In this document: positions 12,369 to 27,356 of the stretch, one piece after another
How the letters are laid out: the number at the start of each line of letters is the position of its first letter
Position numbering within the stretch: position 1 is the stretch's first letter
Origin: a virus
IMG/VR virus record: IMGVR_UViG_3300021379_000360
Coordinates: 1-30,322 of that record
Length of the DNA stretch: 30,322 nucleotides
Direction: 5' to 3' (one strand)
The notes under the pieces: model-generated
The model's input: only the letters and a program-made list of their open reading frames with translations
The model's database searches: none
Told to the model about the DNA's origin: nothing
Program-made: the position numbers and the translations under genes

Positions 12369-14036
12369 TCACCCTAATGTTCTTGTTGAAGATGTTCTAT
12401 TCATCTTATTATTTACCATATTTCCTATTTTATCAGCAATTCTTCTTAGTTCTGCATCGGAAGTATCTCTTGCATTTATTGTTATGTAGTTATTTACTTG
12501 CATTCCTCTATTAGAAACCATTGACTTAGATTGTTGGTTTGTATATACTCTTGAGCCTTTAGGTAAAGAAACTAATTCCGGCCCTCTTTCTCCTACTATT
12601 TGCATAGGACTTGAACCTACTACGCCCCCGTTAGCAAATGGATTTATTTTATCAGCAACCCATTTTACTGCTTTCCATAATAAAGCCCCTATTAGTATTG
12701 CTACCATAACAGGAAGTGCATAAATTCCAATCAATAATAGGGCTTGAGATGCTAAATATTTAATGAAATAAGCAACTAAAAGAATTTTACCAAACTTTGT
12801 TAAAACAGGCATAAGCATTTTCCAAGTTTCTTTTTTAGTTAAAGCCATACCTAATTCAAAAATTCCAACAAATATTCCTGCTAAAAAGCCATATGCACCC
12901 ATAAACACAAGATAAGCCCCTGCCAACAATAAGTTCAAAACATTATCTAATATTTTTACACCATAATCAATTACGCCTTGATAATCTCCTTGTATAAAAG
13001 CACCTACTAAACCAAAGAAATTAGTTGCTATATTCAATACTTCTAAAAATGCGTATTTAAGAACATCTAATATAAATAATTCTTCTAAAACTCCATACAT
13101 TTCATAGGCTATTTTAGCCACACCTAACAACGCTATTATTCCAATTATGCCAAATACAAAATATTTGAATGCTATGTCTAATACAAATTGTGCTGATTTC
13201 TGAAATGCTAATGCTTTAAGTTGTAGTTTGATTTTAAATTTTTCATATCTTTCTCCTAAATTTAATTTCTTTAATACAGATTGTCCGTTTTTCTTAGAAA
13301 ATTTAAAAAACATTTTTAAAGAGTTAATGGGTGCAAAAAGAGGCATAAGAGAATATCCTATTGTTTCTGCTATTTTCTTAAAATTATCTTTTGCGCCTTG
13401 TTGTCTTTTTTCAAATTGTTTTTTTAGGCTTCTTTGTGAAGATGAAATTCCTGCTTTTATTCTTCCTCTACCCGCCCTTGTTTTCATGTTTTCTTCTAGT
13501 CTTGTCGTTTTTTCGGCTTGTCGAAACAATTCGGCTTGTTGTTTAAATTTTTTATTTAATTCTTCTGCGCCTTCTATTTGTGCTTCTCTTTCAGATTTTC
13601 CTAACAAAATAGCCTTTGAATAACTTAAAGTATTTCTTATAGCCTCTTCTTGACTTTCATTAAATTTTCCATTTGAATTTACTACTTTATCAAGTTGACT
13701 TTCTAATTCAGAATATTCTTCTTTTAATTTACGAAAACCTGCAACTTGTTTAATAATAGTTTGGTTTGCTTCCATCTGTGCCTTTGCATTTGCCTTTGAC
13801 CTTTGTTCAAAACCACCAAGAATAGCCAAGTATGCTCTTGCTTTATTTTGTAAAGCCCAAAGAGGACTACCCGAAACTAATCTACTAAATACAGTCCATT
13901 TTTTACCTGCATTAGAAGTAGCGTCTGCGGCTACAATTAACGATTTAGTTAATCCTTTAAATTCTATTCCGGAGGTAATCATAGTAGAGTTTAGACCATC
14001 TAAACTACTTGCTATCTTATCTATTTCATCTGCCAT
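12369..14036 (-). CDS. Tail tape measure protein
   Basis: A 555-residue protein with the standard layout. An N-terminal helical, charged coiled-coil half (to about residue 260) is followed by three or four hydrophobic segments between about 285 and 470. The C-terminal FANGGVVGSSPMQIVGERGPELVSLP region carries the 'GERGPE...lPkGs' signature shared by many phage tape measures. Tape length suggests a tail of about 80 nm by the usual 0.15 nm per residue. It is preceded by the two chaperone genes and overlaps the second by 11 bases, with AGAGGG upstream of the ATG. Confidence 0.92.
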   Translation of the reverse strand: MADEIDKIASSLDGLNSTMITSGIEFKGLTKSLIVAADATSNAGKKWTVFSRLVSGSPLWALQNKARAYLAILGGFEQRSKANAKAQMEANQTIIKQVAGFRKLKEEYSELESQLDKVVNSNGKFNESQEEAIRNTLSYSKAILLGKSEREAQIEGAEELNKKFKQQAELFRQAEKTTRLEENMKTRAGRGRIKAGISSSQRSLKKQFEKRQQGAKDNFKKIAETIGYSLMPLFAPINSLKMFFKFSKKNGQSVLKKLNLGERYEKFKIKLQLKALAFQKSAQFVLDIAFKYFVFGIIGIIALLGVAKIAYEMYGVLEELFILDVLKYAFLEVLNIATNFFGLVGAFIQGDYQGVIDYGVKILDNVLNLLLAGAYLVFMGAYGFLAGIFVGIFELGMALTKKETWKMLMPVLTKFGKILLVAYFIKYLASQALLLIGIYALPVMVAILIGALLWKAVKWVADKINPFANGGVVGSSPMQIVGERGPELVSLPKGSRVYTNQQSKSMVSNRGMQVNNYITINARDTSDAELRRIADKIGNMVNNKMNRTSSTRTLG

Positions 14037-14793: not shown

Positions 14794-16383
14794 TCACCCC
14801 TGCAAAACCCAATGAGTTTTAACTTCGCAAGAATCTAAGGTTCTTGGCATTACTGTTCCTTCTACGGTGATTGCGCCCTTATCATCCGGAACAGTCACAT
14901 TAGCAGTAGAAAGGAAATAGTCTTGGAAGTTAAATAAAATTTGTTCTCCCGAAGCCTTGTCAAATTGTAATACTATTTCTTGTCCTGCGCCTGTATTTTC
15001 AGAATCATTAATTAATTCTGTTAGTAGTCTATCATCGGTAATCATAGCAGTAAAAGCAATTTCATATGTTCTTTGTGCAGGAATACCGTCTTTGATTGCT
15101 TTATTTCCTACGCCTATAAATCTCTTATCTTGTAAATTATTATTAATAGTCAAAGTTAAATTGGTTATCTTAAGGAAGGTATGGCCAAATACAGAAAAGG
15201 TTCCACTTGAAAAGAAGAAAGGCTCTAAGGCTTCTGCATTACTATCAAAGTTAAACAAAGAAGTGTTTGTGCCTACATTATTTCTCGGAGTATAAACTTC
15301 TGTTGTTGTTAAGTCATTGATATGGTCTACTGTTCTTGTGTTTAAATCCATAGTCATTTTAACTTCTTCATTTTCGTTAGCAGTTAAGGTTAGAGTATTT
15401 ACTCTATTTCCTCTTGCTATTCTTACTACTGTTTCTGTTTCGATAGCAGTTCCTTCTGTGGCAGTTGTAGTAGTAGTTTTAGTCATACTGTGTTCTAAAC
15501 TAAATGATGGTAAGTCTTCTCCGTTTGCTTCTGCAAATCTGTAAGTAATAGGATTAGTTATTGAACCACTTGTATATGTAGGTCTTGTTAATAAATTCAT
15601 ATTAGCGAGTGTATCTGAACCATTTACAAGGGGAGGCAATAGTGTTTGAGAAGAAGCATCTGCCCTGTAAAATATCGGGCCTTGATTCAGATGTGCAGTT
15701 TCAAATACACTTCCATCAGTTGTTGAAGTATCTCCTGTATCAATATAAACATCCCCTGCCGTGACCGCAGTAAAAGCATCAGTCGGTGTAGTAGCAACAG
15801 AAGTATATTTTACCCCTGTGCAAAGCCCTAAAGCATAATATAAGAAAGCACCATGATTTGCCACAAGTGCTATATTTCCACCACTTGCAGTTTCAATACC
15901 TTTGTATTGATGAGTAAAGTTTCTTGAGCCTCCAAGAGAAAGATTCAATTGTTTCATTTCTATTTCAGTATTTGGGAATGTAGCAGTTTCTACTATCCCC
16001 AACCAATTATCGGCATTTAATCTGTATGAATTTGCCCCTGTTTTATTAGCAGGACAAGGTGCGCCATAGGGAAGAATAATACAAAAATCAGTATTACTAA
16101 CATTTAAATCATGACTGTGTGCAGGAGTAATAGTAAGAGCAGTTTCACTATTACCTGTAATAGTATGTGTAGAAACAGGATTAGCGGTATCTGCTGAATC
16201 ATATAGTTCTACTTTACAACCTATGTAAAGATTAGGAACTAAAAGAAGATTAGTTGAAAAAGAAGATAAAAGAGCCAAACTTGTAGAAGTTGATGCGCTT
16301 TGATTTATAAATGAAGTTAGTTGTAATTCCGGCACTAATGTTGTAGTTGCCCCGCTTCCTAAAAATATGTTATTGTTTGTCAT
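14794..16383 (-). CDS. Major tail tube protein
   Basis: A 529-residue protein. The segment from about residue 125 (LNADNWLGIVETATFPNTEIEM, broken here only as description; then GGSRNFTHQYKG) follows the form of siphovirus/Thermus-type tail tube proteins, and the C-terminal third (RTYEIAFTAMITDD, then QEIVLQFD, then ITVEGTVMPRTL) forms the closing beta strands. It is long for a tube protein, because a beta module is inserted near residues 40-110 and another in the middle. It lies upstream of the chaperones and tape measure, as expected. GGGGAGA precedes the ATG. Confidence 0.82.
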   Translation of the reverse strand: MTNNNIFLGSGATTTLVPELQLTSFINQSASTSTSLALLSSFSTNLLLVPNLYIGCKVELYDSADTANPVSTHTITGNSETALTITPAHSHDLNVSNTDFCIILPYGAPCPANKTGANSYRLNADNWLGIVETATFPNTEIEMKQLNLSLGGSRNFTHQYKGIETASGGNIALVANHGAFLYYALGLCTGVKYTSVATTPTDAFTAVTAGDVYIDTGDTSTTDGSVFETAHLNQGPIFYRADASSQTLLPPLVNGSDTLANMNLLTRPTYTSGSITNPITYRFAEANGEDLPSFSLEHSMTKTTTTTATEGTAIETETVVRIARGNRVNTLTLTANENEEVKMTMDLNTRTVDHINDLTTTEVYTPRNNVGTNTSLFNFDSNAEALEPFFFSSGTFSVFGHTFLKITNLTLTINNNLQDKRFIGVGNKAIKDGIPAQRTYEIAFTAMITDDRLLTELINDSENTGAGQEIVLQFDKASGEQILFNFQDYFLSTANVTVPDDKGAITVEGTVMPRTLDSCEVKTHWVLQG

Positions 16384-17114: not shown

Positions 17115-18419
17115 TCAAATCAAATAAACTATATCTCCTTTTCCGGATAGTGTTTCCATAGCCTCTTTTCTTAGAATATCATATTTTTCTTTTGTAGTAA
17201 TATTGCCACCTGTTTCAGCAATTAAAACTGTTTGGTCGTCCATTCTAAGTATTTCCGCAGCAACTAATTTAGTGGAAGCGTCATGAATCGCTGCGGGAAC
17301 TCTTGTAGAACCTGCTAAATATGAAACAAATATAGAGTTATTAGGATGATATGGGTATTCTTGTAAAAAGAAAATTCTACCTTCTTCGCTTAATAACCAA
17401 TAATCTTTCAACCTACCCATTCTTTCTTTATCAGTAAATGAAGTTAATTGACATACTGTTGGTATTTCATCCGTAGTAGTAAATGTTCCTGTGCTTGAAC
17501 CTGTGTTTGTAGCAGATTGGCTCATAGTAACAGTGGTTGAATCTACAATAGCGGTAATAGTAGTTCCCGAAGGAATGTGATTATTGTCATCTTCTATTTC
17601 CATACCCACTTTAAGTTTAGAAGAATCTGCTACGGTCAAAGTAGTGCTTGCATTTGTGTGGCTTATTGCTTGTTCTATTGTTGCTTTGATTACACAATCA
17701 GCCCCATCATCTCCCGATAACAAAGAAGAAATAAATACAGAAGTTCCATCTTGGCTATTTTTTTGAGCAAAGAAGAAATCAGATATAGATAATTGAGAAG
17801 AAGTTAATGATTTAGCCGCACTTGCATTTGTAAATTGAGAAGTCTTAGGATATTCTTCGTTAATCAGTGCAACAATTTCATCATTGGTTGTTTTTATTCC
17901 GAAGGTATTACAAAATTCATCGTTGCCTAATTGATTAATAGTGTTTTCAGAATTAAGGGTAAAAGAAACACCGCTATTAGGTAATTGTAAAATTATAGAT
18001 TTTAAATCTCTAAAGTTTTCTAATAATGTTATTCTTGCTTGTGCAGAAGCAATTTCAATATAATCATTACCATTCCATACTTGTAAAGAAACTACCTTTC
18101 TTATTTTCATTTGAGTTAATTGAATGAATCCTACATAACCGCCATAAAGCGTATAACCGGGCGAATTTCTATATTCAAAACTATGGAACTCTTGTTTAGT
18201 AAGAATAGGTCTATGGGAACGCTTAACTTTATCATCTACGATTCCTTCTATTCTTTTAATCATATTTCCTACTTGAGCAAGTGTAGGATATGTAGATACA
18301 GAAAAGGCAGGTATTTGTAATAGATTTGCTACTTCAGTAGCATTAGTGTAATAACCTCTACCGTTAGTATAATCCGGATTGATTTCTGTATAATCGCTTG
18401 GTGAATTAGTTAGGCTCAT
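17115..18419 (-). CDS. Head-tail connector protein with inserted beta module
   Basis: A 434-residue protein. Residues 25-110 contain a helical pair (ATEVANLLQI, then LAQVGNMIKRIEGIVDDKV) resembling gp6-type head-tail adaptors, and the C-terminus (ASTKLVAAEILRMD, then KYDILRKEAMETL) is the helical close seen in such proteins. Residues about 253-315 are an inserted beta module with VGMEIEDDNNHIPSGTTI and VTMSQSAT, also seen at the start of the giant hub. Adaptors of this kind are usually 100-200 residues, so this is an enlarged version. GAGGTGA precedes the ATG. The position between head and tail genes supports the call. Confidence 0.65.
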   Translation of the reverse strand: MSLTNSPSDYTEINPDYTNGRGYYTNATEVANLLQIPAFSVSTYPTLAQVGNMIKRIEGIVDDKVKRSHRPILTKQEFHSFEYRNSPGYTLYGGYVGFIQLTQMKIRKVVSLQVWNGNDYIEIASAQARITLLENFRDLKSIILQLPNSGVSFTLNSENTINQLGNDEFCNTFGIKTTNDEIVALINEEYPKTSQFTNASAAKSLTSSQLSISDFFFAQKNSQDGTSVFISSLLSGDDGADCVIKATIEQAISHTNASTTLTVADSSKLKVGMEIEDDNNHIPSGTTITAIVDSTTVTMSQSATNTGSSTGTFTTTDEIPTVCQLTSFTDKERMGRLKDYWLLSEEGRIFFLQEYPYHPNNSIFVSYLAGSTRVPAAIHDASTKLVAAEILRMDDQTVLIAETGGNITTKEKYDILRKEAMETLSGKGDIVYLI

Positions 18420-18420
18420 T

Positions 18421-21006
18421 TTATTTCACCTCTAATCCATACCTTTTTACTCTTCTTACTTTAACTGCTAAATTATCTATTTCTTCTTTTAGTTTTTTAT
18501 TAACTCCTTCTTTTCCTTTTCCTTTTGTAAAAGGATTGAAGTTAAAATAGCCTAATTTTCTAATATAATAATCGCACACCAATGTTGCGTCTTTTAGTGC
18601 TTCTACTAAATTTTCTTTTTCCGCAGATTCTCCTACATCAATTCGTCCAAAATCATCGGACTGTCTTACTGTAATATTATTGTCTTGTATTTCTGTTAGT
18701 GAAAATTGCCCTGTTTCTTGTAATTCTTTTGCTCTTTCTGCACTTAAAGGAACTTCTCTTACGGGCTTTTTAAGTGCCTCTATTTCTTTTTCTGCTTCTT
18801 GTATTAAAGTTTCTAATTGGGATGGAGTTAGGGATTTTGCCTTTCTATACACCTTTCTTTCTTCGTTAGTTAATTTTTTATTTACCGTTTTTGATGATGT
18901 GGTATAATCTTCTTTATTTTCAAAATCTATTCTTTTTCTATTAACAAGTCTTATTGAGGGATAAGGATTATTTTTCATATCTTTTTCGTATTCTCGTTGT
19001 TTAGAATCATATTTTCTTTTAGTAATAAATGAGTTTTTATCATTTATATCGAAATCTTCTACCGTAGTTTTTTCATATATCTTGTCAAATAAATCTGAAA
19101 GAACTATTCTTTTTCCACTTTCACCTACTTCAGATGCTCTTATAGTATTTATTTTTCTTTTAATTTCTTCAAAGTTTTTATCATCCTTTTTAACTAAAAT
19201 AGGTCTTTTGAAAGTATCATACATAGAAAATGCTTGTGGTTTATTTTTATCTATAATTTTATTATCCATTATTGTAGCCACAATAAAGTCATTTAGTGAC
19301 ATAATTTTTTGTTTTATTTCTTTTTCTTTGTCCTCTTCATTTTTTATTTTTTTATTTCTTTCTTCGATTCTTTTATTTGCATCTATTCTATAATCCTGAT
19401 TTATTTCTACTCGTTTTTTACTATCATACAATTTTTTATCCTTTATCATTTTTTTAATTTCTTCTACTTTTTTTAACTTATATGCTTCTACTTTTTTAGT
19501 CGCTAATTGAGCATAAGCATTCTTTGGTGCATTTTTTAATTTATAATTATATTCCTTAGTTTTGATTGATTTAGGAATTGGTCTATCCGGTGATTCTAAA
19601 TAATCTATTCTTTTTTCTAATTGTTGTATTCTGTCTAAATTTTCTTTTGGGATTTTTGATGAAGAAACCAATTCAACTAGAGATTCAATGTTTTCATTTG
19701 CTTCTGATTTTGATTTTGCTTTTTTTTGGTAAGAGGGTAGTGAGCCTGTTCCTCTTGATTTTGTTGTTACTTTACACTGTATTTCAATTAAATTTATTTC
19801 TATTGGATTGTTTAGCATAGATTTAATTGGTTTTAATATAGTTGATTTTTTATCATCAAACCAACTTATAATAAAGTCATCTAAATCATCAGATAAATCA
19901 GCGACTATGTATTCATTTTTTCCTCTTAAAAAACCAAAACTTTCTACTCGATATGTATTTTTTCCATAAGTAAATGTAGGATTATTATCGTTTTTAGTAG
20001 AAAGAGCAGAAATAATGTCTAATATTGTGTTTAATTGATTCTCTTTAAAATAATCTTTAATGGATTTAGTATCTCTAAAGTTTTCTTTTCCTTCTATTCT
20101 AACTGATTTGGGTTTTACCTTTTTGGTTTTTCCTGTAAATGGGTTAATGGTTTCTCTTTCTTTTGTTCTTGCTCTTGTTGCTTTACTTTTTGTCAACTTA
20201 GAAACTTTGATACTATCTAAGTTAATACCTTTAGTTAATTTAGCAATTTTTGGTAAATCTAATTTAAAAGGAAATAGTTCTCTAATTATTTTTTGTTTTG
20301 AATTTTTTTGAGAAACAAATTTAAAATTAGAAACTCCCCTATTTTCAATAAATTTCTTTTTGGCTTCTATTTGAGAAGTTTGTTCTCCTATTTTTATTAT
20401 CGAATGAGTATCTTTTAAAGATTTATTATTAGAAACACTAAAAGATATTTTACCACTCGGTATTTTGACGGTTTCTTTTGTTTCTCCTATTTTTACTTCT
20501 TTTTGTCCTTCTCTTAAAATAAATTCTGATTCTATTTCTACTGCATCCATTATTTTTTTATCATCTAAGGAATTAAAAGTTTGAGGTATTTTTTCTAATC
20601 TTCTGCCGAATTTGATAAAAGAAAAACCTATCAAATCATTAACTAATTTGCTATTAGTTAATATGTCTTTGTAAGTAATTTTTTTAAATTTTCTTTCTAT
20701 TTTTTCTTTTATTTCTTTTTTATCTTCGGCAGTTGCATCTTTTGGAATAACATATAGAGAAGATAAAGCGTTTTTTTCTTCTAAAAAATCATATATATTT
20801 TCATCTAATACTTCATTAAACAATCTATTCATTATTTCCATAAACTGTTCTGTTTGATTTGTTTTTCTTGTCTGCCTTAAAGCCTCTCTTAAAGAAGAAT
20901 TAAAGTTAGTAGAAGAACCGTGTAAGAGTTTTTTTATGGCTCTTTTTATTTCCTCTTCATCTTCGGGGAATTTTTTGGGGTAACTCCCCCATATAAAAGA
21001 AACCAT
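18421..21006 (-). CDS. Large Lys-rich protein of unknown function
   Basis: An 861-residue protein that I do not recognise. It is extremely rich in Lys, Glu, Ile and Asn, with long predicted coiled-coil helices at about 490-590 and 755-775. A more globular, beta-containing region lies between about 315 and 420 (FTYGKNTYRVESFGFLRGKN, then DDFIISWFDDKKS). The basic stretch at about 260-305 (KVSKLTKSKATRARTKE, then GKTKKVKPK) could bind DNA. It lies between the Gln-rich protein and the connector, in the morphogenesis operon, so an internal virion, DNA-ejection or maturation protein is possible. GAGGT precedes the ATG. No catalytic motif was found. Confidence 0.7.
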   Translation of the reverse strand: MVSFIWGSYPKKFPEDEEEIKRAIKKLLHGSSTNFNSSLREALRQTRKTNQTEQFMEIMNRLFNEVLDENIYDFLEEKNALSSLYVIPKDATAEDKKEIKEKIERKFKKITYKDILTNSKLVNDLIGFSFIKFGRRLEKIPQTFNSLDDKKIMDAVEIESEFILREGQKEVKIGETKETVKIPSGKISFSVSNNKSLKDTHSIIKIGEQTSQIEAKKKFIENRGVSNFKFVSQKNSKQKIIRELFPFKLDLPKIAKLTKGINLDSIKVSKLTKSKATRARTKERETINPFTGKTKKVKPKSVRIEGKENFRDTKSIKDYFKENQLNTILDIISALSTKNDNNPTFTYGKNTYRVESFGFLRGKNEYIVADLSDDLDDFIISWFDDKKSTILKPIKSMLNNPIEINLIEIQCKVTTKSRGTGSLPSYQKKAKSKSEANENIESLVELVSSSKIPKENLDRIQQLEKRIDYLESPDRPIPKSIKTKEYNYKLKNAPKNAYAQLATKKVEAYKLKKVEEIKKMIKDKKLYDSKKRVEINQDYRIDANKRIEERNKKIKNEEDKEKEIKQKIMSLNDFIVATIMDNKIIDKNKPQAFSMYDTFKRPILVKKDDKNFEEIKRKINTIRASEVGESGKRIVLSDLFDKIYEKTTVEDFDINDKNSFITKRKYDSKQREYEKDMKNNPYPSIRLVNRKRIDFENKEDYTTSSKTVNKKLTNEERKVYRKAKSLTPSQLETLIQEAEKEIEALKKPVREVPLSAERAKELQETGQFSLTEIQDNNITVRQSDDFGRIDVGESAEKENLVEALKDATLVCDYYIRKLGYFNFNPFTKGKGKEGVNKKLKEEIDNLAVKVRRVKRYGLEVK

Positions 21007-21016
21007 TTTATTTACC

Positions 21017-21667
21017 TCACATTAACCATTTAGCCCAAGCAGCCCCTTTTTGGATTGCTGAACCTAATCCTAAACCAGCAGAAGGAGGCTCATAACTCAT
21101 TTGTCCGGTTTGTGGGTCAATCCAATATGGTCTACCATATCCGTCTTGACCGGAAGGAGGAACAGGATAACCACTACCATTATTCATAGCACCCTGCATT
21201 TGGTTATATTGTTGCACATTTCCTGTAACTCCTGCAATTGCCATACCTGCTGAAACTTGTTGCATTCCCGAATTGAATCCTTGAGATTCAAGGTATTGTT
21301 GTTTTGCTAATTTTCTTTGATTTACTACTTCTGTATTGATAGCCGATTGTAGCAATTTTTGAATATCTAAATCAATATTTTCTTGAGTTATCTTTTCAAA
21401 TTCTCTCATAGCATCGGGATTTATAGTAATGTTTCCCGAATTAGTAGTGAAGGATAACTTAGAAAGCATTTGTGAAACTACTCTTTCTATTACATCTTCC
21501 ATTAGTTTTTCTAATGCAGTTAGAAAATGCTCACCATGATATTGAAAAAATTCTTCAACATGATTATCTTGTAAAGATAACAAATTATTCATGCTCTTGA
21601 ATTGTTGGTCGCCTTGTTGTTGAACCGCATTTAATACAGTTCCATTACTTGTTCCCATTATTCCCAT
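21017..21667 (-). CDS. Gln/Gly-rich virion-type protein
   Basis: A 216-residue protein of unknown function. Residues 1-130 are helical and Gln-rich. Residues about 150-200 are Gly, Pro, Gln and Tyr rich with a WIDPQTGQMSYEPP segment, a low-complexity linker. The last 15 residues form a small amphipathic helix ending KGAAWAKWLM. AGAGGTAG precedes the ATG. It follows the zinc-finger gene by one base, so the two are probably co-translated. A structural or assembly role is inferred from location. Confidence 0.6.
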   Translation of the reverse strand: MGIMGTSNGTVLNAVQQQGDQQFKSMNNLLSLQDNHVEEFFQYHGEHFLTALEKLMEDVIERVVSQMLSKLSFTTNSGNITINPDAMREFEKITQENIDLDIQKLLQSAINTEVVNQRKLAKQQYLESQGFNSGMQQVSAGMAIAGVTGNVQQYNQMQGAMNNGSGYPVPPSGQDGYGRPYWIDPQTGQMSYEPPSAGLGLGSAIQKGAAWAKWLM

Positions 21668-21668
21668 A

Positions 21669-22334
21669 TTATTCTACCTCTTCTGTTTCTTCTTGATTAA
21701 TGGCTTTGACATTTTTGTGTATCATTAGGTGATTTAATCTATCTGTTAATATATTAATTTCGCCAACTATCTCAATTGCTTCATTAGTGGCTGACCTATT
21801 ATCTCCTAATGTGGGTGGCTTTATTAAATAACCTACTGCCGTTAGTGAAACAATATCTTCTTTTGTTAAGTTTTTAATTGGGCCGGACTTTAGCATTTTA
21901 GGCATTGATGGAATAAATGCTTTAAATTCTAAACCGTGTTTGTCTGCAAGCATCTGTTGTTGTAACATTTCTAATTGCATATACATTGAAGCGTGTTTAG
22001 GACAATAAGTTCCATTAAGGGGCCTACCCTTTACTACTTTATCTAAAGGAATAGGAGGTCTTCTAAAATCACCTTGTTCCCAAATATGATGAAAACCACA
22101 AACTACGCATCTGTCTTTTAGATTAAATTTTTTACCATATTTAAAAAATAAAAACTTTTTAGGTTCAGAAGATAATACCATTATTAATTCTTTTAATTGT
22201 TTCTTAGGTTTATGTGACATAAATTTGTATTCGGTCACAATTCCTGTTGCTCTTGCTTGTTGTAGTGGACTTAAAGTAAATCCGCTAAAACTTTGGTTCG
22301 GTGTGTTTTGTCCTATTAATTGGTTTTGATACAT
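21669..22334 (-). CDS. Zinc-finger protein next to the GTPase
   Basis: A 221-residue protein. A probable zinc site is formed by Cys76-Cys79 (CVVC), His82/His83 and the Cys111-His114 pair (CPKH). The first 70 residues contain a basic KPKKQLKEL helix. The C-terminal part is helical (LTKEDIVSLTAVGYL, then EIVGEINILTDRLNHL) and ends acidic. No family is recognised. It begins nine bases after the GTPase stop, with GAGGAAGT upstream, and ends one base before the next gene. The tight coupling suggests it works with the GTPase or the virion proteins. Confidence 0.65.
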   Translation of the reverse strand: MYQNQLIGQNTPNQSFSGFTLSPLQQARATGIVTEYKFMSHKPKKQLKELIMVLSSEPKKFLFFKYGKKFNLKDRCVVCGFHHIWEQGDFRRPPIPLDKVVKGRPLNGTYCPKHASMYMQLEMLQQQMLADKHGLEFKAFIPSMPKMLKSGPIKNLTKEDIVSLTAVGYLIKPPTLGDNRSATNEAIEIVGEINILTDRLNHLMIHKNVKAINQEETEEVE

Positions 22335-22343
22335 TTTACTTCC

Positions 22344-23012
22344 TCAATAATCTTTTACCATTGTCATGATTCCTCGATAAACCATTTCGGGGTCTGATTT
22401 AGCAGAAACAATATATTTGAAACAGGGAATGCCTTTATCGTTTAACTGCCTCATACCATACTTGAAAGGTTCAAATATTTCATGTTTATCTATACTTTGT
22501 CCTTCTTTCAATGGGTATTTTTCTCCCCATATATCATATTTGTTAGCCCAAATTCCTAATGCTATCGGGTAGTCGCTTTCTTTTTTTCTTCTTCCCGTTG
22601 GCCAAGTATTAGATGTAATAGTATCTACTAAGAATTTCCATGCTACTTGATGGTCTAAATTGGCTTCATTATCTAAATGCCTATGGTCTATCATAAAAAT
22701 AATATATTTTACTCTACGACTTTGCATGTCCTTTACCCATTCTTTCCAATAAATTGCTTCTCCTCCAATATCAGCACTTTTTACTGTATGCGAATCCCCG
22801 TCTATCTTTACTGTTTTTCTTGTTGCTCTATGTAGTCCTACCGTTCTTTCATTAATAGGGGGAACCTCCCCCCTCGTTCTTAGTTGATTACTAAGAGTAG
22901 TTTTACCAACCATTGTAGCACCATATACTCCGAAGTTAATAGCATGGACTTTCTTCCAAAAACCAATCATAGCCTCGCCAACTAATATGGCAAAACCCGT
23001 CATTAACGACAT
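22344..23012 (-). CDS. Ras/Arf-like small GTPase
   Basis: A 222-residue protein with all five G motifs of the Ras superfamily in order. G1 is G31-ATMV-GKT38, G2 is probably Thr57, G3 is D81-IGG84 followed by a Trp helix (IYWKEW), G4 is N157-KYD160, and G5 is S203-AK205. The DIGG form of G3 and the following aromatic helix are closest to the Arf/SR-beta branch (DVGGQ in Arf), though the catalytic Gln position is Glu85 here. Residues 1-20 form a hydrophobic or amphipathic helix, placed as the membrane helix is in Arf proteins. Two membrane-protein genes precede it and a zinc-finger gene follows. It probably binds GTP and switches shape; the partner is unknown. GGAGAT precedes the ATG. A packaging ATPase is excluded by the NKxD and SAK motifs. 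Confidence 0.88.
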   Translation of the reverse strand: MSLMTGFAILVGEAMIGFWKKVHAINFGVYGATMVGKTTLSNQLRTRGEVPPINERTVGLHRATRKTVKIDGDSHTVKSADIGGEAIYWKEWVKDMQSRRVKYIIFMIDHRHLDNEANLDHQVAWKFLVDTITSNTWPTGRRKKESDYPIALGIWANKYDIWGEKYPLKEGQSIDKHEIFEPFKYGMRQLNDKGIPCFKYIVSAKSDPEMVYRGIMTMVKDY

Positions 23013-23013
23013 A

Positions 23014-23229
23014 CTAAATCTCCCATGAATGCCAAAGAGTATCTACTATCCATCCTATTATATTTATATCGAAAACACCCAATATATTACCTATAAAAAA
23101 AGCAGAAAGAGTTGCACAAGAACCCCAAAACCAAGCCCTTATTTTAAAAAATAAAAGGTCTGCTGAATGCGCTCTTTGTTGATTATAAGCGTAATCAGAA
23201 TCAGTGAATCCTAACATATCGGAAATCAA
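23014..23229 (-). CDS. Small membrane protein, TTG start
   Basis: A 71-residue protein. After a polar N-terminus, residues about 31-67 are hydrophobic and Trp-rich (WFWGSCATLSAFFIGNIL, then IIGWIVDTLW), which allows one or two membrane passes. The TTG start is supported by GGGGTGA four bases upstream; the first ATG is only four codons further in and lacks such a site. It ends one base before the GTPase gene, so the two are likely translated together. The function is unknown: a membrane anchor for the GTPase, a virion membrane component or a holin are all possible. Confidence 0.65.
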   Translation of the reverse strand: MISDMLGFTDSDYAYNQQRAHSADLLFFKIRAWFWGSCATLSAFFIGNILGVFDINIIGWIVDTLWHSWEI

Positions 23230-23240
23230 TTATTCACCCC

Positions 23241-23621
23241 CTATTGTAAGGCGGCTAAAAATTCATTTCCTACTTCGTTAGTATCTTCTTGTGCAGGGGA
23301 ATAAAAGTTAGTGTTATATTGTCTTGCACTTTCTCTCATCTTCTGTCTTTGTTGTTCATCTCTTGCCTTTCTTTCCCAATAAGCAGCAATTTTTCTATCC
23401 AAAAGCCACAATTCAATTCGGTCATTTAAGGCTAAATCAAACAATGCTTTCATTACCATAATTACTCCTATTGTTCCTAAACCAAATAGAATAGAATGTG
23501 CAAAGGCCCCATATGGAAAGTTCATTCCAAAAGAAGCGTAAGCCCAAACATTTGTTCCACTTAATGCACCAACAAAAAGTATAGTCATAACTAATCTTGT
23601 ATCTTGACTTAATACTGCCAT
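23241..23621 (-). CDS. Two-pass membrane protein
   Basis: A 126-residue protein. Two hydrophobic segments lie at about residues 10-31 (LVMTILFVGALSGTNVWAY) and 39-66 (AHSILFGLGTIGVIMVMKAL), followed by a charged helical tail (WERKARDEQQRQKMRESA) that should face the cytoplasm or virion interior. A holin-like function is conceivable, but the long charged tail and its place beside the GTPase suggest a complex with the neighbours. Its start lies after the stop of the 101-residue gene, with GAGGTT upstream. Confidence 0.65.
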   Translation of the reverse strand: MAVLSQDTRLVMTILFVGALSGTNVWAYASFGMNFPYGAFAHSILFGLGTIGVIMVMKALFDLALNDRIELWLLDRKIAAYWERKARDEQQRQKMRESARQYNTNFYSPAQEDTNEVGNEFLAALQ

Positions 23622-23630
23622 TATAAAACC

Positions 23631-23936
23631 TCAATTAAATTCAACGGAAACGGCTGCACCTGTTGTTCCTCCGGATTCTATATCAAGATATAATCCATTA
23701 GAACAAATAACTCCATGCAAGTCAAATTCTATACAGTTAGGAGAAGTAGGAGAAGCAGGGTCATTTAGAACTATTCTTATCAATTCTTTACCCGATGCAG
23801 AAGTATTGTCATACAGTTTAACAAAAGTAGAATCGCCTCCACCTGTATATTGAGCATGAACACTTATTAATTTACACCTTTCAGAACTAATAACACTACT
23901 TGCAGTTTTAATACCACTACTACGACAACTCGACAT
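23631..23936 (-). CDS. Small beta-sandwich head protein
   Basis: A 101-residue protein. Its pattern (GIKTASSVISSERCKLISVHAQ, interrupted; VKLYDNTSASGKELI; GVICSNGLYLDIE) matches a small beta-sandwich type seen in many uncultured marine phages, commonly written 'LYDNasasG', which lies near capsid genes. It is probably a capsid decoration or a tail-tip accessory protein. GGAGATGAG precedes the ATG. The pattern is recalled from experience rather than from a named family. Confidence 0.6.
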   Translation of the reverse strand: MSSCRSSGIKTASSVISSERCKLISVHAQYTGGGDSTFVKLYDNTSASGKELIRIVLNDPASPTSPNCIEFDLHGVICSNGLYLDIESGGTTGAAVSVEFN

Positions 23937-24739: not shown

Positions 24740-26137
24740 TCACAGTAAGTTGGTAATCTTTCCTTGACCCTTAAAGTATGAACAACCTACTTCTGCAATT
24801 GTTCGGTAAAGAGCCTTGTTTCCAAGAGTCCCTACACCGAATGGGTTTCCGTTAGAAATACCGTCTTCAAAGTATTGAGTTGGCTTCATAACAGATAGCC
24901 AAATGTGGTCTGTATCTAAGAATAGCATGTCACTAATAGCGTTAGATGTAGCCGAAGTTTGTGGCATAGCAGATACAGGAATTAGAGGAATGTCGTAATA
25001 AGTCGAAACTCTAAATCCTACTTCTGCACCCTTTACTCCACGAACACCATTTACAGTAGGAACTATTTCCTTTCTATCCATGAATCTTTCTTGTGCTTGT
25101 AGCAAATCAGCCAATGTCTGAATTGTATCATATCCTGTTAGAATAACCTTTGGTGAACCACCTGCTTCTCTCAACAATCTTAGAGTTTTGTTGATTAAAG
25201 TTAGTGTTAGTTGTCGTCCACCTGTTGCTGAATAATCATCGTTATCATCAACTTGTGCGTCAAGGAAACCTGTTCCGGAAGCACCACGAACAGTTCCGTA
25301 AAGTTGCTTCATAGGAGTATTGTCAGCATCATCTGTTCCTGCGTTATTGTCATACTTTAGGGAATAGAAGTCATCTGAATCCATTTGTGTTATTTCAGCA
25401 GCACTTGAAACTACCTTCAATAGAGAAGTATAGTTTCGGTCAAGCAAATCAAGACTTTCTCCGCTACCGGAACCTAAGTAGAACTCAAATGGCATTACAA
25501 GCATTTTGTTCTGAACTTCTGCGTGGTGCTTACCCATATCTTCTCTCATTTGCGCTCTAATGTCACCAATTCCGTCATCAATTGCTGCCATTTCCATAGC
25601 CAATTCGCTGAAATTGAATTGGTGAGCAACAATCTTAGGGCTTGTGAACAAGGTTGTATAAGTTGGTGCAATTGGGGAAAGTCCATCAGCCGCAGTATCT
25701 AAACCTGCATTTTCGGGAACACCACCAATAGTATCTGCTCTTGGTGCAGTAGAACCAATGTTAGAAGCAGTTGGTGAACTAACCGTATCATCGGAGTTTG
25801 CGGCAACTGCGAAAGAGTTTCCACTACCACCAGCAGGTCTTTCTGTCATGATTCTCCATCCGGAAGAAGTGTATGGCCTCTTTGAAATCATTGAAAGAGC
25901 GTTACATTCTCGGTTTAGCATAGACCAAACCTTTTGTCCGTAAATTTTGTTGTATAGTCCTGCTACATCAGAAATACCCGATGTTCCGGAACCCAAATCA
26001 GTTCCACCGGATGCGTGTCCGGTATGTAGTCCTGCTACTGTTCCGGATTGTTTCAACAATTGGTTGTTAAAACCTGTTGCGCCTGTCAGTCCATATGTTC
26101 TTGCTTCTAAATCTGCGATTGTATTTACATAACTCAT
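24740..26137 (-). CDS. Major capsid protein, HK97 fold
   Basis: A 465-residue protein placed directly after the protease/scaffold gene. The N-terminal 80 residues are Gly and Thr rich, like a flexible arm (SGGTDLGSGTSG). The middle has an HK97-type long helix region (FNFSELAMEMAAIDDGIGD, with QMREDMGKHHAEVQNKML following) and the C-terminal half alternates strands and helices (LTLTLINKTLRLLREAGG, then KVILTGYDTIQTLADLL) ending with a hydrophobic AEVGCSYFKG strand. This pattern and the gene order give the call. GGTGAT precedes the ATG by three bases. The codons used here (more C and fewer rare codons) look more selected than in neighbours, as expected for a highly expressed gene. Confidence 0.88.
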   Translation of the reverse strand: MSYVNTIADLEARTYGLTGATGFNNQLLKQSGTVAGLHTGHASGGTDLGSGTSGISDVAGLYNKIYGQKVWSMLNRECNALSMISKRPYTSSGWRIMTERPAGGSGNSFAVAANSDDTVSSPTASNIGSTAPRADTIGGVPENAGLDTAADGLSPIAPTYTTLFTSPKIVAHQFNFSELAMEMAAIDDGIGDIRAQMREDMGKHHAEVQNKMLVMPFEFYLGSGSGESLDLLDRNYTSLLKVVSSAAEITQMDSDDFYSLKYDNNAGTDDADNTPMKQLYGTVRGASGTGFLDAQVDDNDDYSATGGRQLTLTLINKTLRLLREAGGSPKVILTGYDTIQTLADLLQAQERFMDRKEIVPTVNGVRGVKGAEVGFRVSTYYDIPLIPVSAMPQTSATSNAISDMLFLDTDHIWLSVMKPTQYFEDGISNGNPFGVGTLGNKALYRTIAEVGCSYFKGQGKITNLL

Positions 26138-26147
26138 AATATCACCT

Positions 26148-26825
26148 TCAATAAATTCCTCCGACCATCTTGTGAATGTCGTTCCAATCCATTTCGGCTA
26201 GTTCATCCATTGATGGGAGTTTAATTTGTGCCTCTTCTTGTGCCTTTAGAATTGTTTCTTTTTCAGCAGTTAAGGACTTTCTTAGTGCAGTAAATTCTTC
26301 CTTTAGGGAAGCGATTTCGTTTTGTGCATCATAGTTTTGTTTCTCTAAGATGTTTTCACGAACTTCTCTTTCTTGAGCAAATCTGCTTTCAAAAGATTTT
26401 TGTAGATTGTCGTATGCAATCTTTTCTAGTTGTTCTTGGCGGAATGCTTCATAAGCCTTCTCAATATTAGCAACACTCAAATCAAGTGTTTCTAATTCAT
26501 TGTTTCCAAACGCTTTTACTACGGGCAAATCTGATGAAGTTGGTCTGCCATTGTTGATTACAACCCTATCAGCAGGTTCTCCAATTTCAACGCCAGCACC
26601 ATCAAGAGTAGATACATACGCTTTGTTTGCATCGTCCTCATAGTCTGCCATTTCTTTTTCATCATCGGCTCTTTCCATCATATTAGGATTCATAGCCTTT
26701 TCTTCATCAGAAACTTCCATGTATTCGCCCATGCCCTTTTCTTCTTCTTCTTCTTCCTTCCTCAAGGTATTAACTTCTGCCATAAGAGCATCAAGTTCCT
26801 CAAGTGCTTTCTCTATTTTACTCAT
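26148..26825 (-). CDS. Nested scaffold protein from internal start
   Basis: An in-frame ATG at codon 178 of the protease gene has AGGTGA five bases upstream (26831-26836), the same motif and spacing as the true starts of this operon. It would give a 225-residue acidic coiled-coil scaffold without the protease part, comparable in design to lambda Nu3 nested in gene C. The start lies exactly at the domain boundary. This is a prediction from sequence only. Confidence 0.55.
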   Translation of the reverse strand: MSKIEKALEELDALMAEVNTLRKEEEEEEKGMGEYMEVSDEEKAMNPNMMERADDEKEMADYEDDANKAYVSTLDGAGVEIGEPADRVVINNGRPTSSDLPVVKAFGNNELETLDLSVANIEKAYEAFRQEQLEKIAYDNLQKSFESRFAQEREVRENILEKQNYDAQNEIASLKEEFTALRKSLTAEKETILKAQEEAQIKLPSMDELAEMDWNDIHKMVGGIY

Positions 26826-27356
26826 TTTTTTCACCTTTTTTTCTTGCTTTAAAATGTCAAATCTCGCTTCGGGGTTTATTCCTTTTTCACAAATCGTCAC
26901 TTCATGTAATTCTAACTTGCTTATCTCATTGTATTGTCCTAATTCGGGATGGCTTTTTTTTACCTTCTGAATTGCTTGTCCTCCAATGCTAAAACTCCTA
27001 AGCGAACCTTTTCTTATGCCTCTTCCTATTTCTTTGGCTTTTTCTATATCATCTCTTAATTTTATTACTACAAAGAATCCTACATCATCTACTTCGGTTT
27101 TCCATATTTTGCCATTTTTATCTCTATATGATTTTATTACTTCTCCGACTTGAACATTTGAGTGATTTGTCATTACATTTCTAAATTTTGGATTCTCCAT
27201 ATATTTTTCTACTGCTTCTTCAAGTGCTTTAAGTGTGATTAAATCGTTTTGCTTGTCAACAATTTCAATGCTTGCATATCCTCCAATCATTAAATCGTCT
27301 TGGCTTTTGAGAATACTGAAATCCATATTATTGTGCATCATAACGGTGGAAGCCAT
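26148..27356 (-). CDS. Prohead maturation protease fused to scaffold
   Basis: A 402-residue protein. Residues 20-170 form an XkdF/S78-type serine protease: GGYAS at 25-29, likely catalytic His65 (TNHS), Ser123 within SFSIGG, and the closing LELHEVTICEKGINPEA. Residues about 178-402 are acidic and coiled-coil rich (EALMAEVNTLRKEEEEEEK as part of a long helix, later FTALRKSL), as in scaffolding proteins. The protease processes the scaffold and possibly the capsid during head maturation. The gene starts after a promoter-like TATA box, with AAGGAG ten bases before the ATG. A second in-frame start at codon 178 could make the scaffold alone. Confidence 0.86.
   Translation of the reverse strand: MASTVMMHNNMDFSILKSQDDLMIGGYASIEIVDKQNDLITLKALEEAVEKYMENPKFRNVMTNHSNVQVGEVIKSYRDKNGKIWKTEVDDVGFFVVIKLRDDIEKAKEIGRGIRKGSLRSFSIGGQAIQKVKKSHPELGQYNEISKLELHEVTICEKGINPEARFDILKQEKKVKKMSKIEKALEELDALMAEVNTLRKEEEEEEKGMGEYMEVSDEEKAMNPNMMERADDEKEMADYEDDANKAYVSTLDGAGVEIGEPADRVVINNGRPTSSDLPVVKAFGNNELETLDLSVANIEKAYEAFRQEQLEKIAYDNLQKSFESRFAQEREVRENILEKQNYDAQNEIASLKEEFTALRKSLTAEKETILKAQEEAQIKLPSMDELAEMDWNDIHKMVGGIY
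26831..26836 (-). promoter_or_regulatory. Internal ribosome binding site in protease gene
   Basis: AGGTGA followed by five As and an in-frame ATG (26823-26825). It lies in the junction between protease and scaffold domains and supports separate scaffold translation. Confidence 0.55.

Follow-up and report, generated by a model that had tools for sequence, protein, structure and literature searches.

A 30,322-nucleotide stretch of viral DNA (virus record IMGVR_UViG_3300021379_000360, positions 1 to 30,322; hereafter the window) encodes an Arf-like small GTPase as the third gene of a five-gene cassette, whose order is identical in two virus clades. The placement of an Arf-like switch, together with two membrane proteins, between head and tail genes suggests that these viruses control a membrane step of infection by means of the type of switch with which cells shape their membranes. 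Our preferred reading, which we hold tentatively and with slightly less than even confidence, is that a functional Arf-like GTPase is the core of a co-inherited membrane cassette within the late operon, where it would drive or time a membrane event late in infection. The initial annotation had placed the gene at 22344-23012; these coordinates stand, whereas the strand does not, as evidenced by a plus strand that is full of stops across this interval. The gene lies on the minus strand, among the following features.

26148-27356, minus strand: prohead protease (S78)
24740-26137, minus strand: major capsid protein (HCTV-1/SU10-like), the upstream anchor of the empty-site comparison
23631-23936, minus strand: g101, a small head-region protein that flanks the cassette upstream
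23241-23621, minus strand: TM1, a 126-aa small membrane protein judged by hydropathy, the first cassette gene
23014-23229, minus strand: TM2, a 71-aa small membrane protein judged by hydropathy, whose stop lies 1 nt upstream of the GTPase start
22344-23012, minus strand: Arf-like small GTPase of 222 aa with an ATG start at 23012, recognized from profiles, motifs and a structural model
21669-22334, minus strand: ZN, a 221-aa protein with a putative zinc site, starting 9 nt past the GTPase stop
21017-21667, minus strand: g216, a 216-aa protein, the last cassette gene
18421-21006, minus strand: g861, a large fast-evolving protein that flanks the cassette downstream
17115-18419, minus strand: g434, head-tail adaptor-like as judged from its position, the downstream anchor
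14794-16383, minus strand: tail tube protein (Phage_tube_2)

The minus-strand genes run in the order ATP-dependent DNA ligase, prohead protease, HCTV-1-type capsid protein, three small head-region genes, TM1, TM2, GTPase, zinc protein, g216, g861, adaptor-like protein, tail tube, probable tape measure and large tail proteins, which confirms the earlier claim that the GTPase gene lies between capsid and tail genes in a morphogenesis operon. When searched against 50,697 phage records, the capsid protein matched haloarchaeal and methanogen-associated tailed viruses only, and it is 28% identical to its HCTV-1 counterpart. A ligase gene adjoining the prohead protease gene is known from a group A magrovirus (PMC7318539), and the Magrovirales, according to the ICTV, have morphogenesis and replication blocks on opposite strands and genomes of 90-110 kb (PMC12999244). 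Long relatives of the virus are mostly 92-101 kb in length, and four of ten of them encode a Cpn60/TCP-1-type chaperonin, which has been described from MGII viruses (PMC5332604). Because the halovirus-related capsid, the ligase beside the prohead protease, the opposed blocks, a length within 90-110 kb and the chaperonin all fit published descriptions of magroviruses, we take the virus as a magrovirus-type tailed virus, judged by its layout; going by the magrovirus literature, its host would be a member of the Poseidoniales. Magroviruses are thought to rank with the most abundant marine viruses (PMC10160649).

Two side observations concern this genome setting. One relative (L042, IMGVR_UViG_3300021958_000021) measures 184,733 bp, approximately twice the usual length, and carries a pair of chaperonin genes separated by about 90 kb; it is possibly a duplicated or concatenated assembly. 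The probable tape-measure protein of the window (12369-14036) is short, at 555 aa, and has a dense hydrophobic block at 282-445.

All five G motifs noted in the initial annotation are present in order, namely the G1 P-loop GATMVGKT (residues 31-38), the switch-I Thr57 within RTVG, D81-IGGE, the G4 motif N157-KYD and the G5 motif VSAK (202-205, with S203-AK). Three scans of viral contigs returned 181, 238 and 307 GTPase-related stretches, and the search for homologues in marine virus contigs that had been proposed earlier thus revealed a family occupying more than 300 of them. G1, DxGG and VSAK are kept in all 176 full-length homologues; NK[Y/F]D occurs literally in 161 of the 176, and the remaining form seen among the representatives, NKHD, is still an NKxD. 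Residues K37, T38, T57, D81, G83, G84, N157, K158, D160, S203, A204 and K205 are invariant in 52 representatives (60-91% identical to the window GTPase), and the loss of NKxD and SAK in close homologues that was looked for did not occur. The median dN/dS against the window GTPase gene was about 0.05 (20 pairs, dS<1.5), a rough value given that dS is near saturation. Since the motifs are kept, the profiles described below agree and dN/dS is this low, the gene is real and constrained and not a product of chance. It also encodes the most conserved protein in both clades in a comparison that took in 20 other late proteins; median identities to the window are 84.9% in clade 1 and 62.2% in clade 2 for the GTPase, and 67.3% and 57.8%, respectively, for the capsid protein. 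The GTPase is therefore unlike a dispensable accessory.

The initial annotation had pointed out that the switch-II Gln is replaced by Glu85, and had taken this to mean that hydrolysis may be slow or need a partner. The replacement holds for the window protein but not as a fixed loss, because Glu and Gln alternate naturally at this position (of 176 homologues, 135 have Glu and 41 have Gln), with all of the Gln85 cases falling outside the group with a TMVGKT P-loop. For the corresponding Ras substitution, Q61E, both raised intrinsic activity (PMC10515638) and reduced activity (PMC6813200) have been published. As these data conflict, no hydrolysis rate can be inferred from Glu85, and we dropped the residue as a sign of slow hydrolysis.

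Profile searches place the protein among the small GTPases. The NCBIfam model TIGR00231 (small_GTP) matched 52 of 52 members, with a best E of 1.8e-7, and scored 21.0 bits against the window GTPase, under the curated 42.5; Pfam MMR_HSR1 (PF01926) reached 22.8 bits, over its curated cut-off of 21.9. Among the 52 members, Pfam matches were to MMR_HSR1 in 50, Roc in 42, SRPRB in 40, Ras in 27 and Arf (PF00025) in 16, the last at E<0.1 only (best 2.1e-4). Pfam Arf had no match to the window GTPase; it was the top Pfam match of the clade-2 consensus, at 19.0 bits versus a cut-off of 22.3. A small-GTPase fold is supported by an AlphaFold2 model of moderate confidence, built on a diverse alignment (pLDDT 70, pTM 0.70, switch I <50); an earlier model from 14 near-identical sequences (pLDDT 52) was set aside. 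Foldseek of the model returned Ras, Rab, Arf and Galpha chains with E near 1e-7. When the top 1000 chains were re-aligned with VIA, approximately 47 of the best 50 rows were Arf/Arl, at Z 14.8-16.1, and other chains within about 1 Z in these 50 included a Lokiarchaeal Rag-like protein (15.5) and mimivirus Rab (14.9). No SRbeta, MglA or ArvA chain stood in the best 50 of the 1000, which is not evidence against them. The roadblock (MglB-like) domain Robl_LC7 (PF03259), which marks the regulators of MglA/Rag-type GTPases, scored over its cut-off in none of ten magrovirus-type records.

These data bear on whether the protein might be another P-loop NTPase, such as a Sak4/RecA-like protein or a kinase. 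Such a reading could draw on a weak match to PHROG 124 (Sak4), with a best value of 0.0006 in two of 52 members, which in the window protein covers the P-loop only (21-44). The invariant NKxD and SAK, which denote guanine specificity, the DxGG motif and the small_GTP match in every member are against it. A best structural match to a non-GTPase P-loop family was looked for as well, and the matches listed were small GTPases or Galpha. We rejected this candidate on NKxD, SAK and structure, and consider it highly improbable. From sequence we infer a Ras-superfamily small GTPase that would in practice bind and hydrolyze GTP.

Of the earlier description as an Arf-like small GTPase, the superfamily was upheld, an Arf-like fold is probable from the moderate-confidence model, and membership of the Arf family itself was not upheld. 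The Arf/Arl proteins (ARF1, ARF6, ARL1-3 and the Asgard ArfR structures 8oum and 8ouk) resemble the model in fold and topology, with rmsd values mostly of 2.6-2.9 A over approximately 160 residues at 16-22% identity. Common to Arf and the viral GTPase are a helix before strand 1, a T-(V/I)-G switch I, D-x-G-G-(Q/E) and ANKxD. The viral Trp92, 7 residues past residue 85, sits at the place of ARF1 Trp78, which follows Gln71 of ARF1 by the same 7 residues. Unlike Arf, the viral protein has SAK for CAT and an insertion after NKxD, and it lacks Gly2, the N-myristoylation site of Arf proper; Ser2 is invariant across all representatives. The spacing from Thr57 to Asp81 is 24 residues, longer than the short Arf interswitch, which is 19 residues in ARF1 (Thr48-Asp67). 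An Arf-style hydrophobic N-terminal helix, also part of the initial annotation, was predicted at residues 3-22; with a mean hydrophobicity of 0.40-0.61 and a moment of 0.22-0.35 (0.15 and 0.27 for ARF1 residues 2-17), it is hydrophobic, more so than that of ARF1, and weakly amphipathic. Because of scores under the Pfam cut-off, the long interswitch, the lack of Gly2, the SAK and the insertion, we describe the GTPase as Arf-like and not as an Arf.

The cassette has the order TM1-TM2-GTPase-ZN-g216 in two virus clades (88 + 88 loci), and its genes are separated by gaps of 1-11 nt in the window. TM1 lies directly upstream in 86 of 88 loci of clade 1 and 85 of 88 of clade 2; the corresponding counts are 87 and 88 for TM2, 84 and 86 for ZN, and 84 and 82 for g216, and many of the loci are contig fragments, which may explain the missing genes. 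TM1 has a clear hydrophobic segment, another that is weaker, and a long charged C-terminal tail, and ZN has an invariant C76-x2-C79 ... C111-x2-H114 arrangement (C2CH, the putative zinc site). No convincing Pfam family was found for TM1, no convincing Pfam or PDB relative for ZN and no convincing known family for g216. In g216 we noted a conserved YWID..TGQ..Y.PP stretch (PYWIDPxTGQ), WW-like by a weak match only (E 0.03-0.05); close to the C-terminus, the residues AWAKWL are invariant. Within clades, distances of the GTPase correlated with those of g216 (r 0.84) and TM1 (0.78), and less with those of the adaptor (0.57), ZN (0.52) and the capsid protein (0.37), which supports a GTPase-TM1-g216 core. 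A role of ZN as a regulator of the GTPase is weakly supported, as its correlation is no better than that of the adaptor. Several loci have accessory genes inserted into the cassette, either between TM2 and the GTPase (L047, L057, L042, L002) or between the GTPase and ZN (L062, L057, L149), with the cassette order kept; one inserted type carries LFQGxQG...WTPxLxEAL.

In the loci examined, the cassette is situated between the head genes and the head-tail adaptor, that is, within the structural operon. This position, together with the very strong conservation, would suit a virion or entry device, in which the cassette proteins are packaged or placed at the head-tail vertex and GTP hydrolysis gates membrane passage at entry. 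GTP is not expected inside a virion, and we know of no Ras-type switch in a tailed virion; two small membrane proteins would, moreover, better suit a cell membrane than a non-enveloped tailed particle. We judge an entry device unlikely.

The search for cassette-free viruses used an alignment headed by the halovirus capsid protein. In 67 loci there was no GTPase match; of these, 56 had a recognizable prohead protease and 49 a recognizable adaptor (g434), and none of the 67 contained the GTPase, ZN or g216. TM1/TM2 occurred in two contigs only, which are fragments from the cassette clades as evidenced by a close capsid match and an early end. Of archaeal tailed-virus records searched whole, 13 cassette-free ones gave no GTPase match and two cassette-bearing ones matched. 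HCTV-1/HVTV-1 and other archaeal Caudoviricetes share the gene order capsid, protease (most of them), adaptor and tail, with a capsid-to-adaptor interval that lacks the GTPase cassette; in the haloviruses, this interval holds only three to five small genes. In the sister viruses, a small gene precedes the site; a gap of typically 9-12 nt separates it from the gene for a protein of 577-977 aa, and the adaptor comes next. Weak homologues of g101 precede the equivalent site in some of them; homology of g861 with the large protein that occupies this place was unsupported (hhalign probability 0.5%). Since the operon is otherwise collinear with and without the unit, the five genes were gained in the cassette lineage or lost in the others.

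The with/without comparison also bears on the idea of an assembly-site organizer, in which the GTPase would position or license capsid-tail joining, as a localization factor or chaperone, and remodel no membrane. Its place between head and tail genes and the 1-11 nt spacing would agree with such a role; yet sisters whose capsid, protease, adaptor and tail genes are homologous assemble in its absence, and the presence of two membrane proteins dedicated to the cassette speaks for a role at a membrane, making an organizer of this kind quite unlikely. The same comparison weighs on the reading that we prefer, the late membrane switch, in that sisters with similar head genes evidently spread without the cassette, which counts against the proposed function.

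A separate observation from the morphogenesis regions of the cassette and sister viruses is that more than 50 ORFs, many otherwise dissimilar, start with MW-x-x-[I/L]-[L/I]-K, with mostly D or N at position 4 (e.g., L047:9479-9985, L042:9056-9688, L057:9459-9992 and L052:10675-11130; further examples are L037:10675-11136, L148:16701-17708, L086:15488-16154 and L117:7420-8403). The search gave 57 distinct starts on the structural strand and 0 on the other strand; five control patterns gave 0 and an MF control gave 5. Because its codons vary synonymously, the start is a peptide signal. T4 internal proteins carry capsid-targeting sequences, and by comparison with these the MW peptide may be a tag by which cargo proteins are packaged or targeted.

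By analogy, the best functional precedent for the viral GTPase is ArvA (OapA, HVO_3014), an archaeal vesiculating GTPase. In Haloferax, vesicles no longer form when ArvA is deleted and become more frequent when it is overexpressed; the protein starts with an amphipathic helix, has a zinc-ribbon neighbor, is labelled PF01926 and was nearest to Arf in a remote search (PMC10927574). Going by the published description, both proteins are below 250 aa, belong to PF01926, lie near Arf and have an N-terminal helix and a neighbor with a zinc site, which in the virus is putative. Unlike ArvA, the viral GTPase is encoded in a structural operon, beside two membrane proteins and a C2CH protein and not ArvB/ArvC. 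Pfam matched no relatives of ArvB (DUF2073), ArvC (OapC) or ArfGAP in the cassette genes, and OapC (PF09845) scored over its cut-off in none of ten magrovirus-type records. Given that no ArvB/ArvC was found, the viral GTPase may work like ArvA and is not callable a member of its family.

Host switches of this kind are the basis for a further alternative, host takeover, in which the viral protein would mimic or compete with a host GTPase (ArvA, MglA/Rag-like or SRP-receptor type) and titrate host effectors, so that vesicle shedding, division or trafficking is blocked during infection. Many Euryarchaeota have GTPases of the ArvA type (PMC10927574), and Ras/Rab proteins are common in giant viruses. 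Nevertheless, the catalytic motifs are all kept, the gene is invariably accompanied in the late operon by four viral partners of its own, and an interferer would have no need of TM1, TM2, ZN and g216. Host takeover is unlikely in our estimation.

For the late membrane switch, the hydrophobic N-terminal helix of the GTPase, the two dedicated membrane proteins and the place in the late operon argue for a membrane-anchored protein. The N-terminal helix, probably aided by contacts of the GTPase with TM1/TM2, would keep the protein on the inner side of the host membrane. Loading with GTP would then change switch I/II and the interswitch such that TM1/TM2 or g216 could be engaged, and hydrolysis involving Gln/Glu85 would reset the GTPase, with the zinc protein possibly serving as a GAP or regulator. 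Most likely, the switch would drive or time a late event, whether the membrane is remodelled locally to let virions out or virions still under assembly are docked to it, an action that may be likened to ArvA-driven vesiculation in haloarchaea. Membrane anchoring, partner contacts, late timing and a role in remodelling or egress are what we infer for the GTPase. The more specific proposal of GTPase-controlled egress, in which the virus-encoded Arf-like switch and its membrane partners remodel or gate the archaeal membrane for release, is possible but rather doubtful.

The initial annotation described small GTPases as rare in tailed viruses, and our searches agree: neither the window GTPase nor human ARF1 had a relative in 50,697 phage records, no PHROG family matched the window GTPase at E<0.01, and, in the best 50 viral structure matches, the named ones were giant-virus proteins. 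Giant-virus Ras/Rab proteins such as mimivirus Rab (5xc5) are virus-encoded small GTPases of similar fold; in contrast to these eukaryote-like proteins, the GTPase studied here is from a tailed archaeal virus, is fixed in a late cassette and shows 8-21% identity to them. A plasmid collection gave one meaningless match covering 18% of the query. A cellular homologue was rejected, as the sole genome_contigs match (L087, NZMJ01000024.1) is apparently viral, in a scan that reaches close relatives only. That contig is part of a GTDB genome labelled Maricaulis (a MAG) and contains viral capsid and GTPase genes; on account of the capsid gene, the MAG is apparently contaminated by a magrovirus-type contig. 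No GTPase is mentioned in the magrovirus and archaeal tailed-virus literature covered here, which excludes the founding 2017 account (Philosof et al.); we found no earlier description of it, and an annotation in that account or in GenBank records is possible. The five-gene cassette and its absence from the sister viruses were not part of the initial annotation.

To our knowledge, the way in which tailed archaeal viruses exit from their hosts is largely unknown. A GTPase cassette that is very strongly conserved and near-universal in one branch and absent from collinear sisters offers a concrete, testable entry to egress, with five genes, a clean with/without comparison and, in Haloferax ArvA, a model archaeal system for membrane effects. 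With this GTPase, tailed archaeal viruses join the short list of viruses that have Ras-superfamily switches and, if the proposed function is true, the cassette would be a prokaryotic-virus counterpart to Arf/ArvA membrane budding.
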